Source: Corallococcus terminator (lineage in GTDB: Bacteria > Myxococcota > Myxococcia > Myxococcales > Myxococcaceae). Taken from it: a stretch of 32,443 bases of DNA. The position numbers and the translations under genes are program-made. The stretch lies in the NCBI RefSeq assembly GCF_003611635.1, contig NZ_RAVZ01000070.1, positions 1-32,443 of the forward strand. Reading direction: 5' to 3'. Under the pieces are notes generated by a model that was not told the DNA's origin, searched no databases, and saw only the letters and a program-made list of their open reading frames with translations. Below, in pieces: positions 24,855 through 29,698 of the stretch (position 1 is the first letter of the stretch; every line of letters starts with the position of its first letter).

Positions 24855-26753
24855 TTACGGCGGGCAGGGCGTCTGGCTGTCGTTGCCAATGATGCTGAGC
24901 TCGAAGGGCGAACCGGAGTAGGCGAGGTCCGCCAGTTGTTGCACGCGGCAGGTGGGCAGCAGGGGGTTGTTCTCCACGGAGAACCCCTGCTCCACCGCGA
25001 GCAGCGACTCCAGGCCCAGGCCGGTGAGGCTGGGGTTGTCCGTGAGCTTGAGGAACTGGAGGTAGCGCAGGTCGCTGAGTCGGGACAGCTCCAGCAGGTC
25101 CCGGTTGTAGCGGACTGACAGGCGCTCCAGTCGCATCAGGGATCCGAAGCCGCCCAGGTCGGTGAGCATCGGGTTGCTCTCCACGGTGAGGATCTGGACG
25201 GAGTCCAGCTTCGGCAGGTCCGCCACCTTGCGCAGCAGGGCGTTGTTGCTCAGCCAGAACGACTCCGACACGGTCCGCAGCTCGGGCATGCCGCCCGCGG
25301 ACTCCAGCGAGGCGTTGTCCCCGATGAGCACCGAGCCCACGCGGACGAGCCGGGGGAAGCCCGCCGTCGTCTTGAGCGCCGCGTTCTTGATGATGGAGAC
25401 GGAGGCCGCGCTCTGGAGGCTGTTCAATCCCTGCAGGCTGGTCAGCGCCGCGTTGTTGAAGATGGACAGGTGTTCGACGGTGCGCAGCGAGGACAGCCCG
25501 GAGAGCGACTCCAGCGCCGCGCCATGGGCCACCGAGGCGCTGTAGGTGGATTCGAGCAGGGGCAGGTCCAGGCCGCGCAGCCGCGGATTCGACTGCACGT
25601 TCAATCCAAGAGAGAGGCTGGTGACGTAGGGGAACTCGAAGGTCTCCACCAGGGCGTTGTCCGACACGGTGAGCTCACCGTTGGGCGCGAGCGCACGCAG
25701 TCCTGCGAGCGAGGCAAGCTGGGGATGGTCCCTCACCACCAGCGCCCGGTCCACGTAGACCTGGTGCCCGTCCGGGTCGCCGAGGGTGGCCGTGGTGAGC
25801 CCCGCGTTGAGCTCCATCCACACATCCCGGGCGAAGCGCAGTCCGGGCAGGTCGACGCGGTCCAACTGGGGGTTGGTCTGGATGGACAGGGAGCCCACGA
25901 CGACGGACAGCTCCGGCAGGATGAGCTCCGACAAGGTCGCGCTGTTGATGATCAGATCGCCGTTCACGCGGGTGACGCCCTGGAGGGCCGCGAGGTCCGA
26001 CGCGTCGCGCACCACGTAGGTGCCCTCATGGACGCGCGTGGGCCGGCACAAGATGAGGGAGATGGTGGGCTCCGTGGCGATGTCCTGCTGCCCGTTGCCA
26101 TTCAGGTCGCCAAAGGCGGACACCCGCGTGCCCGGTCTTCCGCAGGTGCCTCCCGCCGGCTCGGGCTGGACCTGGGGATGGATCCGCGAACTGTCCAGGT
26201 CGCAGAAGTAATGGGAGGCCTGGACCTCGGAGGTGTCGAGCACGCCGTTGTTGTCCACGTCCTCGCCCGCTTCCAGCACACCCCCCTTGAGCGACGGGCA
26301 GGCGGCTGTGTCCGTCACGGCGTGGATGCGCGAGCGCACGGGCGCGGTGCTCAGGCACGCATGGACCTCGCGGGTGACCTCGTCGTCGTCCAGCGTGGTG
26401 TTGCCGTTCGAATCGAGGCCCACCCGTGTCACCTGCCCGCCCTCCGGACACTCGGTGCCGGGAGCGAGCCACGCGGTCCGGACCACCACCTGCGGGGTCG
26501 TGGGGTTGGCGGTGGGCGCCCGGTCGCAGGCGTACTCGGTGGAGGTGACCTCGTCGGCCCCTAGCGCTCCGTCCTCGTTCAGGTCGAGCCCCGTCTGGAG
26601 GGCCTGGCCTCCATGGGGACACGCGGCGCCCGGCGGCTCCGGGAGGATGCGCGAGCGGGCAGGGTGCTGCGGGGCGAACGCGGAGAAGTCGAGCGGAGCG
26701 CAGCCTCCCGCCAGCAGGGGGAGGGCCACCCAGATGCTCCATGTCCACCGCAT
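24855..26753 (-). CDS. Lipoprotein with acidic Cys modules and leucine-rich (receptor-L-like) domain
   Basis: The 632-residue protein has a lipoprotein signal (MRWTWSIWVALPLLAGGC, lipidated C18). Four modules of about 45 residues follow (about 33-237), of the form C-x-GG...G-D-x-N-x-x-G...E-V...C (DUF7151-like). Their acidic loops, such as GLDLNEDGALGADEV and DVDNNGVLDTSEV, look calcium-binding. The C-terminal part (about 240-625) is a leucine-rich beta-helix of receptor-L-domain type, with repeated LxxL...NxxL units. No enzyme motif is seen; binding or adhesion is likely. The start at 26753 follows AGGAGA. It is divergent from the MarR gene; the shared region holds the MarR operators. Confidence 0.9.
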   Translation of the reverse strand: MRWTWSIWVALPLLAGGCAPLDFSAFAPQHPARSRILPEPPGAACPHGGQALQTGLDLNEDGALGADEVTSTEYACDRAPTANPTTPQVVVRTAWLAPGTECPEGGQVTRVGLDSNGNTTLDDDEVTREVHACLSTAPVRSRIHAVTDTAACPSLKGGVLEAGEDVDNNGVLDTSEVQASHYFCDLDSSRIHPQVQPEPAGGTCGRPGTRVSAFGDLNGNGQQDIATEPTISLILCRPTRVHEGTYVVRDASDLAALQGVTRVNGDLIINSATLSELILPELSVVVGSLSIQTNPQLDRVDLPGLRFARDVWMELNAGLTTATLGDPDGHQVYVDRALVVRDHPQLASLAGLRALAPNGELTVSDNALVETFEFPYVTSLSLGLNVQSNPRLRGLDLPLLESTYSASVAHGAALESLSGLSSLRTVEHLSIFNNAALTSLQGLNSLQSAASVSIIKNAALKTTAGFPRLVRVGSVLIGDNASLESAGGMPELRTVSESFWLSNNALLRKVADLPKLDSVQILTVESNPMLTDLGGFGSLMRLERLSVRYNRDLLELSRLSDLRYLQFLKLTDNPSLTGLGLESLLAVEQGFSVENNPLLPTCRVQQLADLAYSGSPFELSIIGNDSQTPCPP

Positions 26754-26877
26754 GCGTCACGTCTCCTGAGGGCCTGGCTCGCTCGCAACGCCGCGACGAT
26801 ACCGGGCCCGGTCCTTGTCATACGAGGGCAGGGGTTATTTCGGGTCGTCGGCGTCCCCATCCGACAGGCGAACAGTT

Positions 26878-26910
26878 GACAGGTTCCTGTCGAATTGACA
26901 GGATCCTGTC
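26878..26910 (+). promoter_or_regulatory. Tandem operators of the MarR-VOC operon
   Basis: GACAGG-TT-CCTGTC (26878-26891) and the perfect palindrome GACAGGATCCTGTC (26897-26910) lie 19 bases apart, centre to centre. The second ends one base before the MarR ATG and covers its AGGA ribosome-binding site. TTGACA occurs at both left edges (26876 and 26895), so binding would block promoter and translation start. A third GACAGG half-site lies at 26863-26868. Confidence 0.85.
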
Positions 26911-26911
26911 C

Positions 26912-27385
26912 ATGTCGTCACTTCAAAAGGAAGCCGCCGCCTTCACCGACCTCATCCTGGAGGTGTTCCAGTTGAACGGACTGCTGCTCCAGGCCGGAGA
27001 CCGGCTGAGTGCTCCGGCGGGACTGACGAGCGCGCGCTGGCAGGTGTTGGGCGTCATCGACCACGGGCCCGCCACGGTGGCGGCGGTGGCGCGCACCATG
27101 GGGCTTGCCCGGCAGAGCGTGCAGCAGACGGCGGATGCGCTCGTGGATGACGGCTTCGTGGCCTACGTCGACAACCCCCATCACCAGCGCGCGAAGCTGC
27201 TCTCGCTGACGACGGCGGGCCGTCGCGCCCTGCGCAAGGTGGAGGCCGCGCATGCCGCGTGGGCGAACCGGCTGGGGGCAAGCCTTGCTCCGGGGCTGCT
27301 GGCCGCGGCGCTCGAAGGTGTGCGCGCAGCGCGACTGCGGCTCGAAAAGGACCTCACCCCGGAGGAGGGCGCCCGTGAAACATGA
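26912..27385 (+). CDS. MarR family transcriptional regulator
   Basis: The 157-residue winged-helix regulator begins MSSLQKEAAAFTDL. The winged HTH lies at about 41-105 (SARWQVLGVIDHGPATVAAVARTMGLARQSVQQTADALVDDGFVAYVDNPHHQRAKLLSLT), with the recognition helix near LARQSVQQTADAL. MarR proteins respond to small phenolic, oxidant or xenobiotic ligands. The start is ATG at 26912, because the upstream part of the ORF spans the operator region. It overlaps the downstream VOC gene by 11 bases and is likely its repressor. Confidence 0.93.
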   Translation: MSSLQKEAAAFTDLILEVFQLNGLLLQAGDRLSAPAGLTSARWQVLGVIDHGPATVAAVARTMGLARQSVQQTADALVDDGFVAYVDNPHHQRAKLLSLTTAGRRALRKVEAAHAAWANRLGASLAPGLLAAALEGVRAARLRLEKDLTPEEGARET

Positions 27386-28082
27386 CTCCTGTATTCCATT
27401 GCTCCCGTGCGTCGCCATTGAGCCGACGTTGGAGTTCTACCGCCTCCTGGGCTTCGAGGTGACGTACCAGCAGCGCAACCCGAATCCCTACGCGGCCACC
27501 CGGCGCGGCGGTGCCCACCTGCACTTCTTCGGGCTGAAGGGACTGGATCCCCAGACGGCCTTCAGCAGTTGCCTGGTCATCGTGGAGGAGGTGGAGGCGC
27601 TGCACGCGACCTTCGCGGAGGCGCTGCGAAAGGCCTACGGCCGGATTCCCCTCAAGGGTCTGCCGCGCGTGACGCGCATGAAGAAGGGGCAGACGCGTTT
27701 CACCGTCGTGGACCCGTCGGGCAACTCGGTGATGTTCATCCGGCGCGATGAGTCTTCGGGCCATGGAGACGAGGAGGCACAGCCGGTGTCGCTCCTGGCC
27801 AAGGCGCTGAAGACGGCCCGCCGCCTGCGGGACTTCAAGAACGACGACGTCGCGGCGGCGAAGGTCCTGGAGGTCGCGCTGAAGAAGGCGGACGCCGGAA
27901 CGGTGGAGGAGCGGGGCCAGGCGCTCGCGGCGCGGGCCGAACTGGCCGTGGCCCTGGGGGATGTGCCCCGCGCCCGGGAGCTGGCGCGGGACATCGATGC
28001 CCTCGCGCTTCCGGCGTCAGCGCGTGAGGCGCTCCGGGCGGAGCTGGACGCCATCGCGCCGCTCGCCCGGACGCAGGAGTAG
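27375..28082 (+). CDS. VOC protein (glyoxalase/bleomycin-resistance type) with helical extension
   Basis: The 235-residue product, from the GTG at 27375 (GGAGGAGGG upstream), starts with a VOC domain at 2-125. It has the bleomycin-resistance-type pattern (SCIPLLPCVAIEPTLEFYRLLGFEV..., HLHFFGLKGLDPQTAFSSC, and TVVDPSGNSVMFIR). Residues 140-235 form a helical, Ala/Glu/Arg-rich extension, TPR-like in appearance, which most VOC proteins lack. The gene overlaps the MarR stop, so it is the prime target of that regulator. Drug or electrophile binding, or enzymatic detoxification, are the likely roles; the ligand is unknown. Confidence 0.9.
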   Translation: MKHDSCIPLLPCVAIEPTLEFYRLLGFEVTYQQRNPNPYAATRRGGAHLHFFGLKGLDPQTAFSSCLVIVEEVEALHATFAEALRKAYGRIPLKGLPRVTRMKKGQTRFTVVDPSGNSVMFIRRDESSGHGDEEAQPVSLLAKALKTARRLRDFKNDDVAAAKVLEVALKKADAGTVEERGQALAARAELAVALGDVPRARELARDIDALALPASAREALRAELDAIAPLARTQE

Positions 28083-28090
28083 CAGGCCGC

Positions 28091-29698
28091 TCAGGACGCC
28101 ATCGCCTCCGGAGTGGCGTGGGCGTCCTCCAGGGGGACGTGGGCCTCCGCGTCCTTGGTCTTCGCGATGCGCTCATCCAGCTCCGCGCACAGGTGTTCGA
28201 AGACCTCCTTGTTGAGCGTGCCCTTCTGGTAGGCGTCGAAGAGGGCGTCCTTCTCCACGATGAGGACGCGGCGGGCGGCCTCCTGGTGCTCCTCCTCGTG
28301 GAAGCGCGTGGACTGCTGCTTGAGCGCGGCGAGCTCCTGCTCCACCGCCAGGGCCTTCTCCTGGTATTCGCGCTCCATGGGCTCCAGCACGTCCACGGGG
28401 ATTTCGCGCGAGCGGCGCATGGCCTCCAGCGAAGCGATGGCGGCGTGGATGGCGCCCAGTCGGCCGCGGGCCAGCTCGTACTTCTCCTGGTAGATGTCCT
28501 TGATGCCGGTGATGCCCAGGCGCTTGAGGAGCGGGGCGACGGTGAGGCCCTGGAAGATGATGGAGAGCACCACCACGCCGAACGTCATGTTCACCAGCAT
28601 CTCCCGGTGGGCGAAGTCCGCCGGAAGACCGAGCACCAGCACCATGGACACCGCGCCCCGCAGGCCGCTCCAGGTGAGCACCGCGCTCCAGCTCCACGGC
28701 AGCCGCTCCGACGTGAAGCGCAGCAGGCCGGACACGCCGTAGACGACCACCGCGCGGCCCACGACCACCGCGCCGTACGCGAGCAGGATGGGCTGCCACG
28801 ACGCCAGCAGCGACGTGAGCTGCACCTCCAGGCCGATGAGCAGGAACACCACCGAGTTGAGCGCGAACGCCAGGTACTCCCAGAAGCTCTCCACCGCGAC
28901 GCGCGTGGTGGGGCTCATGCTCAGCCGGGCCGCCCAGTTGCCGCACAGCATGCCGGCCACCACCGTGGCGATAACGCCCGAGTAGTGGAAGTGTTCGGCC
29001 ACCACGAAGGAACCGTACGCGGCGATCATGGTGAGGGTGATCTCCACCATCGCGTCGTCCACGCGCTGCATGACCTGCGCGACCACGAAGCCCACCGCCG
29101 CGCCGATGACGACGCCCATGCCGGCGATCTTGATGAAGTCCCAGGTCGCCCCGCCCACGGTGAACTTCTCCCCGTTGGCCACGCTCACGACGAGCATGAA
29201 CAGCACCACGGCGGTGCCGTCATTGAGCAGGCTTTCGCCCTCCACCAGGATGGCCAGTCGCTTGGGCGCGCCCAGCGCCTTGAACAGGCCCACCACCGCG
29301 ATGGGGTCCGTGGACACGATGAGCGACGCGAACACCATCGCGTGGATGAGGCCGAAGCCCTCCAGGTAGTTCATCCCCTTCATCGCCGGCGACAGCAGCA
29401 GCGCCGTGAGTCCCATGGACGCCACCACGCCGGGAATCGCCAGCGAGGTGATGGTCAGCTTGTTCTTCCAGAACTTGCGGAAGTCGACGTGGAAGGCCGC
29501 CTCGAACAGCAGGCCCGGCAGCAACACGGCGAACAGCAATTCCTTCGTCAGGTGCGGCGGCTCGAAGATGTGCACCACGCCCAGGCCGAGGCCCGCCAGC
29601 ACCAGCGCCACCGTGTACGGAAACTTGAAGTAGCGCGCCGCGATCGCCACCGCGGTCGCGATGGAGAAGAGCAGCACGAAGGCCGATTCAAAGTGCAT
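28091..29698 (-). CDS. CPA1-family Na+/H+ antiporter
   Basis: This inner-membrane exchanger controls pH and Na+ (or K+). The 535-residue protein has a hydrophobic N-terminal domain of about 10-12 helices (1-390) with the CPA1 markers STDPIAVV (129-136) and EGESLLNDGTA (153-163, containing the key acidic residues), and SGLRGAVSMVL. A cytoplasmic C-terminal tail of about 140 residues, rich in Glu/Lys/Gln, is coiled-coil-like and probably regulatory. The start is ATG at 29698. It is divergent from the guanidino-enzyme gene across 315 bases. Confidence 0.95.
   Translation of the reverse strand: MHFESAFVLLFSIATAVAIAARYFKFPYTVALVLAGLGLGVVHIFEPPHLTKELLFAVLLPGLLFEAAFHVDFRKFWKNKLTITSLAIPGVVASMGLTALLLSPAMKGMNYLEGFGLIHAMVFASLIVSTDPIAVVGLFKALGAPKRLAILVEGESLLNDGTAVVLFMLVVSVANGEKFTVGGATWDFIKIAGMGVVIGAAVGFVVAQVMQRVDDAMVEITLTMIAAYGSFVVAEHFHYSGVIATVVAGMLCGNWAARLSMSPTTRVAVESFWEYLAFALNSVVFLLIGLEVQLTSLLASWQPILLAYGAVVVGRAVVVYGVSGLLRFTSERLPWSWSAVLTWSGLRGAVSMVLVLGLPADFAHREMLVNMTFGVVVLSIIFQGLTVAPLLKRLGITGIKDIYQEKYELARGRLGAIHAAIASLEAMRRSREIPVDVLEPMEREYQEKALAVEQELAALKQQSTRFHEEEHQEAARRVLIVEKDALFDAYQKGTLNKEVFEHLCAELDERIAKTKDAEAHVPLEDAHATPEAMAS

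Follow-up and report, generated by a model that had tools for sequence, protein, structure and literature searches.

In Escherichia coli, the MarR operator is present twice in marO, at the promoter from which MarR itself is expressed, and the second copy lies near the start codon. E. coli MarR is reported to bind and repress marO (PMC7355843). CrtR of Corynebacterium glutamicum is a MarR-type regulator, described as negatively autoregulated and transcribed as a leaderless mRNA (PMC5401885). CvkR, a MerR-type repressor of cyanobacterial CRISPR-associated transposons, is likewise reported to be made from leaderless mRNA and to have a widely conserved operator; few leaderless mRNAs are known in cyanobacteria, 51 being cited for Synechocystis 6803 (PMC9938897). 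Reports of -10 elements next to genes exist for Deinococcus-Thermus (PMC12340547).

The window, the whole stretch of 32,443 nucleotides analysed here, is from Corallococcus terminator (NZ_RAVZ01000070.1). It contains a marR gene, preceded by two palindromes and overlapped by a VOC gene. The preferred reading, to which a probability of about 0.75 is given on sequence comparison, is that the palindromes would be operators of the adjacent MarR, fused with the promoter and autorepressing, with marR leaderless and the VOC gene co-controlled.

Putative operators in the window

Two palindromes on the + strand, the putative operators, precede marR. The upstream operator, O1, is TTGACAGGTTCCTGTCGA (26876..26893) and contains the palindrome TTGACAGGTTCCTGTC (26876-26891); TTGACA (26876-26881), which forms the left arm, is put forward as the -35 box. 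The downstream operator, O2, is TTGACAGGATCCTGTC (26895..26910). It lies over the proposed -10, CAGGAT (26899..26904, + strand), which is separated from TTGACA by 17 nt and from ATG by 7 nt. The palindrome cores, GACAGGTTCCTGTC (26878-26891) and GACAGGATCCTGTC (26897-26910), are 19 bp apart from start to start. TT precedes both cores, so that TTGACA opens each site. One base (26911) separates O2 from the ATG at 26912. Two GACAGG/CCTGTC palindromes 19 bp apart, with TTGACA boxes within them and an end one base before the MarR ATG, are thus present as the earlier note described. Its span of 26863-26912 opens with a lone half-site, GACAGG (26863-26868), which was considered as a third site and rejected because it lies outside the conserved unit, whose first base is the initial T of TTGACA.

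The pattern GACAGG-N(0-10)-CCTGTC has 2 matches in the window, with 0.10 expected and 0 of 100 shuffles containing two. A chance origin of the pair is unlikely. TTGACAGGNNCCTGTC occurs in the 10.35-Mb genome assembly at the window's two places only, with no third exact copy. With two mismatches allowed, the motif core occurs at 879 places per strand, fewer than the 1166 of the reversed control, and these relaxed matches were therefore left unused. A consensus promoter scan of the window found no promoter, and no Rfam match to a structured RNA was found within 26600-28200.

Genes of the locus

The marR gene (26912..27385, + strand), with a proposed transcription start that coincides with 26912 or lies close to it, encodes a protein of 157 aa (P0001). 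Its match to PF12802 MarR_2, at 50.9 bits over a curated cut-off of 27, identifies a MarR winged-helix domain. The AlphaFold model, of the monomer, has a pLDDT of 92.3 and the fold with terminal dimerisation helices; the top 50 PDB matches listed in a search with it are all MarR-type.

The VOC gene (27375..28082, + strand) encodes a protein of 235 aa (P0002) with a bleomycin-binding-protein-like domain and, in the model, an extra helical C-terminal domain beyond the VOC domain. Its GTG at 27375 precedes the end of the marR stop at 27385, which bears out the overlap of 11 bases noted earlier. Its Shine-Dalgarno, GGAGGAGG (27361..27368, + strand), lies inside the end of marR and pairs with the anti-Shine-Dalgarno at -12.6 kcal/mol. 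P0002 belongs to the VOC-fold superfamily (PF00903 Glyoxalase, 24.4 bits, cut-off 20.6). It matches the bleomycin-binding protein 1ewj by profile (E 1e-13) and also in the fold search. Against the curated NCBIfam bleomycin-binding family it reaches 32.9 bits for BLMT, below the cut-off of 210, and is therefore called bleomycin-binding-like only. Judged from the profile and fold match, the likeliest job of the protein is the sequestering of a small toxic molecule.

A lipoprotein-like gene (24855-26753, - strand; DUF7151 and leucine-rich-repeat-like matches) is divergent from marR. In the window, L003 and L004 it lies between a 220-aa ORF and marR; in L005-L007 marR has the 220-aa ORF as its immediate upstream neighbour, so the lipoprotein gene has been gained or lost here.

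Geometry of the proposed promoter in related loci

A genome-contig scan found 49 loci that encode a relative of the MarR, in Myxococcota, Actinomycetota, Cyanobacteriota, Bacillota and Chloroflexota. Two fragments (L050, L051) were dropped; the remaining 47 and the window make up the 48 loci compared, which are related and not independent. The protein alignment was made also without L039 (cut off by the contig) and L049 (short frame), and the other 45 MarR relatives are 46-91% identical to the window protein. In seven loci (L012, L026, L032, L036, L037, L041, L042) the in-frame start used is 3-9 nt off the alignment-extrapolated place, because no start codon is found there.

The distance from the first base of O1 to the marR start codon is 35-38 nt in 48/48 loci (33-41 nt upstream examined): 36 nt in 26 loci, 37 in 13, 38 in 5 and 35 in 4. 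TTGACA is exact at the O1 position in 47/48. When the search was run without a distance limit, O1 was the best match, at the same spacing, in 46/48; a copy next to the start outscored it in L020 and L035. Conservation opens abruptly at the first T of TTGACA, with 1.7-2.0 bits in the TTGACAG and CTGTC columns and <0.5 bits in each of the 30 columns before TTGACA. The O1 consensus is TTGACAGGnnCCTGTCAA. A conserved coding extension upstream of ATG is ruled out, since spacings of 35, 36, 37 and 38 nt shift the frame. With the start codon held at 35-38 nt from TTGACA, there is scarcely space for a leader.

At a spacer of 16-19 from TTGACA and a distance of 5-9 nt to the start, a hexamer [TC]AnnnT is present in 41/48 loci: 20/24 with O2 (shuffle mean 3.2, maximum 9) and 21/24 without O2 (shuffle mean 2.3, maximum 7). 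Near-consensus forms are TAAAAT, CATAAT, TATGCT and TAGAAT; the window's CAGGAT is weak, with 3/6 consensus letters. The commonest start distance is 36 nt at a spacer of 17, 37 nt at 18 and 38 nt at 19. A longer spacer is paired with a later start, and the start codon therefore follows the -10. In two motif-found Chloroflexota genomes TATACT and TATGCT precede a MarR relative of 42-43% identity, which starts 35 nt from TTGACA.

The second palindrome, O2, scores at least 9 of 14 in 24/48 loci and is poor or absent in 24/48; two sites are therefore not essential. The base that ends the O2 centre, and would also end the -10, is T in 15/18 compared loci and in 9/9 of the closest; the equivalent O1 base is T in 6/18 and 4/9. 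Among 18 further Myxococcota marR promoters this T is kept in 9, seven more being outside this count. This arrangement makes it probable that the -35 box is formed by the left arm of O1 and that O2 spans the -10 and the start-codon region.

The plasmid search matched 47 records, all of <60% identity. Twelve of these 47 records with MarR relatives were examined and the 11 with an annotated start scored; L197, a record without annotation, was left out of scoring. A TTGACA...TGTCAA-like palindrome lies 35-37 nt before the start in 5/11 (L188, L192, L194, L196, L198); in the other 6/11 the best match is at a different distance or poor. The 35-37 nt geometry is hence not general in the wider family. 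Divergent neighbours of plasmid-borne MarR relatives are annotated as VOC family (L191, L193) or as antibiotic biosynthesis monooxygenase (L188, L194, L196, L198).

Distribution of the operator and its proposed regulator

In a motif-first search TTGACAGGNNCCTGTC was found in 25/195 Myxococcota genomes. This MarR is beside the motif in 20/25 (19 of the 24 genomes L067-L090, and the window), VOC alone in 2/25 (L084, L087) and neither gene in 3/25 (L067, L083, L088). A protein search of 189 Myxococcota genomes gave 41 with a MarR match at E <=1e-25 and 40 at <=1e-48, these 40 with one copy per genome. They include 24 of the 25 motif genomes; the motif genome G061 has no MarR match even at 1e-10. 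Every one of the 40 close copies, window included, has a site of 11-16 of 16 letters, 35-37 nt away in 33 and 17 nt away in 7, where O2 exceeds O1. Two distant homologues (43-47%, L166, L167) have a site score of 8. The comparison ties the operator to this MarR, in a set that shares many species with the 48 loci, so that the two sets are not independent.

Outside Myxococcota the motif is present in 1/396 Actinomycetota and 1/244 Cyanobacteriota genomes sampled, in both cases the seed genome, and in 2/299 Bacillota, of which one is the seed and the other has two sites and no MarR/VOC match there. A looser pattern is present in 6/251 Chloroflexota: the seed, two genomes with a MarR relative, and three in which other genes lie near a similar palindrome. 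Of the inner branches of the family tree 19/52 are well supported, and the tree does not settle horizontal transfer. No phage match was found in the search for mobile carriage. Two viral contigs with the exact motif have no MarR/VOC match in the stretches examined.

Some sites stand in other contexts. In L151 and L154 (G113, G129; Myxococcus-group) the operator context is TTGACA-17-TTAGCT, with no gene identified downstream; this operator is possibly a further target of the regulator. In L155 (G061) TTGACAGGCACCTGTC, with TATAGG 17 nt on, precedes a gene for a 451-464-aa protein. In Chloroflexota L115, L117, L119 and L120, TTGACAG....CTGTCAA lies 22-40 nt before a gene for a conserved protein of ~400 aa, which appears to be another family that has a similar palindrome.

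Genes proposed to be under the operator

A VOC homologue follows marR in 36/48 loci, window included. Three cyanobacteria have a shorter protein there; the one scanned (L018) is of the Glyoxalase superfamily. DUF6022 is encoded right after marR in two Paenibacillus and one Chloroflexota (L024, L040, L048); no paper naming DUF6022 was found in the literature searched.

Of 20 chosen Myxococcota genomes searched for the VOC, 17 have a match; in 2 it adjoins marR. Eleven Myxococcus genomes with this MarR have the VOC gene unlinked from marR, and an operator lies <=250 nt upstream of it in 11/11, two of which had already been found by the motif search. These operators score 13-15 of 16 letters, where the background does not exceed 10-11. 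At 10/11 of the unlinked promoters TTGACA is followed at 17 nt by a CAnnnT hexamer, and in L177 and L180 VOC itself shows the 35-36 nt spacing. Four Myxococcota genomes without this MarR have a VOC homologue, 45-48% identical, without the operator (9 of 16), the greater divergence of these VOCs being a confounder. Chloroflexota G213 has a second site 165 nt before a short VOC gene. On comparison of linked and unlinked copies, the bleomycin-binding-like VOC gene is the conserved putative target.

Proposed mechanism and alternative explanations

O1 would supply the -35 box, and the -10, CAGGAT in the window, would lie 17 nt on, inside O2. Transcription would begin at the A of ATG or within a base or two of it, and the marR message would have neither leader nor Shine-Dalgarno. 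Binding of a MarR dimer to O1, aided by a second dimer at O2, would obstruct RNA polymerase and so repress marR. Release of MarR by a ligand would turn on both marR and the VOC gene that overlaps it, the latter translated from its own strong Shine-Dalgarno; its product would probably sequester a small toxic molecule.

An unlikely alternative keeps the same operators and autorepression, places the mRNA start further upstream and takes AGGA in O2 (26900-26903) as the Shine-Dalgarno. AGGA stands 8 nt before ATG, a usable distance in the window, whose -10 is weak, yet its pairing in the window is no stronger than -4.1 kcal/mol. Over the 48 loci pairing before marR has a mean of -1.6 kcal/mol and is -6 or lower in 1/48, versus a mean of -8.0 kcal/mol, and -6 or lower in 25/37, before the partner gene. 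Where O2 is missing, no such element is present and the 35-38 nt are kept all the same; other Corallococcus have AGGT in place of AGGA, and nothing upstream of TTGACA is conserved.

The arrangement expected of a leaderless gene is found: a -10 ~7 nt before the start in 41/48 loci, that of the window being weak, and no Shine-Dalgarno in 47/48. Spacing, -10 and Shine-Dalgarno contrast together strongly suggest a transcript that begins at the marR start codon; from the geometry and the missing Shine-Dalgarno, marR is probably translated from leaderless mRNA.

A two-way switch, controlling the divergent lipoprotein as well, is very improbable. In the window 158 bp separate the lipoprotein start from that of marR, which would suit it, but the gene adjoins marR in 2/47 related loci, and on its strand the operator arms read TCGACA and TGGACA, with no -10 seen and no -35/-10 pair on reading or in the promoter scan. 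No more credible is that the sites serve a different regulator and are next to marR for an unrelated reason. The three motif genomes with the site away from this MarR and the VOC, G061 without this MarR altogether, and the Chloroflexota palindrome before a gene of ~400 aa of a different kind are in its favour; it accords poorly with this MarR being carried by 24/25 motif Myxococcota genomes and with the site at 40/40 close MarR copies, against a score of 8 in the distant homologues. The compact switch of the earlier note stands in part: the operator over TTGACA up to the start codon and the operon with VOC are upheld by comparison. Cover of the MarR ribosome-binding site is not supported, given the weak pairing before marR and the small room for a leader, nor is an effect on the lipoprotein, given its rarity as a neighbour and the missing -10.

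Significance and comparison with known systems

The operator is specific enough for target genes to be found from sequence alone. A small regulon is defined, MarR with a bleomycin-binding-like VOC or DUF6022, of which no description was found in the literature searched; a search there with the operator sequence strings found no related paper. The switch is a candidate self-repressed leaderless gene conserved across distant phyla, cyanobacteria included. There is an even chance that operator, -35, -10, transcription start and start codon form one unit, a self-contained cassette of 36-38 bp. Without leader or Shine-Dalgarno, such a cassette would work unchanged in very different hosts and could explain the same repressor and operator scattered over at least 5 phyla; its exchangeable cargo would be the bleomycin-binding-like VOC, the short VOC or DUF6022.

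An autorepressing MarR switch is ordinary in kind; here operator, promoter, transcription start and start codon appear compressed into one block, which is met again in at least five phyla. The locus resembles E. coli MarR/marO in its MarR protein and two operator copies at its own promoter. Unlike in marO, the spacing of the copies is 19 bp, the putative -35 box is formed by the left arm of O1 and marR is leaderless by prediction; the target is the VOC gene, that of marO being marA. The VOC protein resembles bleomycin-binding proteins (BLMT of Tn5, 1ewj) in profile and fold match over residues 3-125, and differs in its <=28% identity in the fold search, scores below NCBIfam cut-offs and extra helical C-terminal domain. 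With CrtR, as reported, the locus shares MarR-type autorepression and a leaderless transcript, both predicted here; the CrtR target is a divergent carotenoid operon, TTAA and AAATTT are discussed as motif, and the crtR promoter, unlike the present one, is described as not easily recognised (PMC5401885). With CvkR it shares a repressor made from leaderless mRNA, as predicted here, and a widely conserved operator, and differs in protein family, cargo and operator from those reported (PMC9938897). Since CrtR and CvkR are leaderless repressors already described in these reports, the switch in the window would be a variant and not a new kind.
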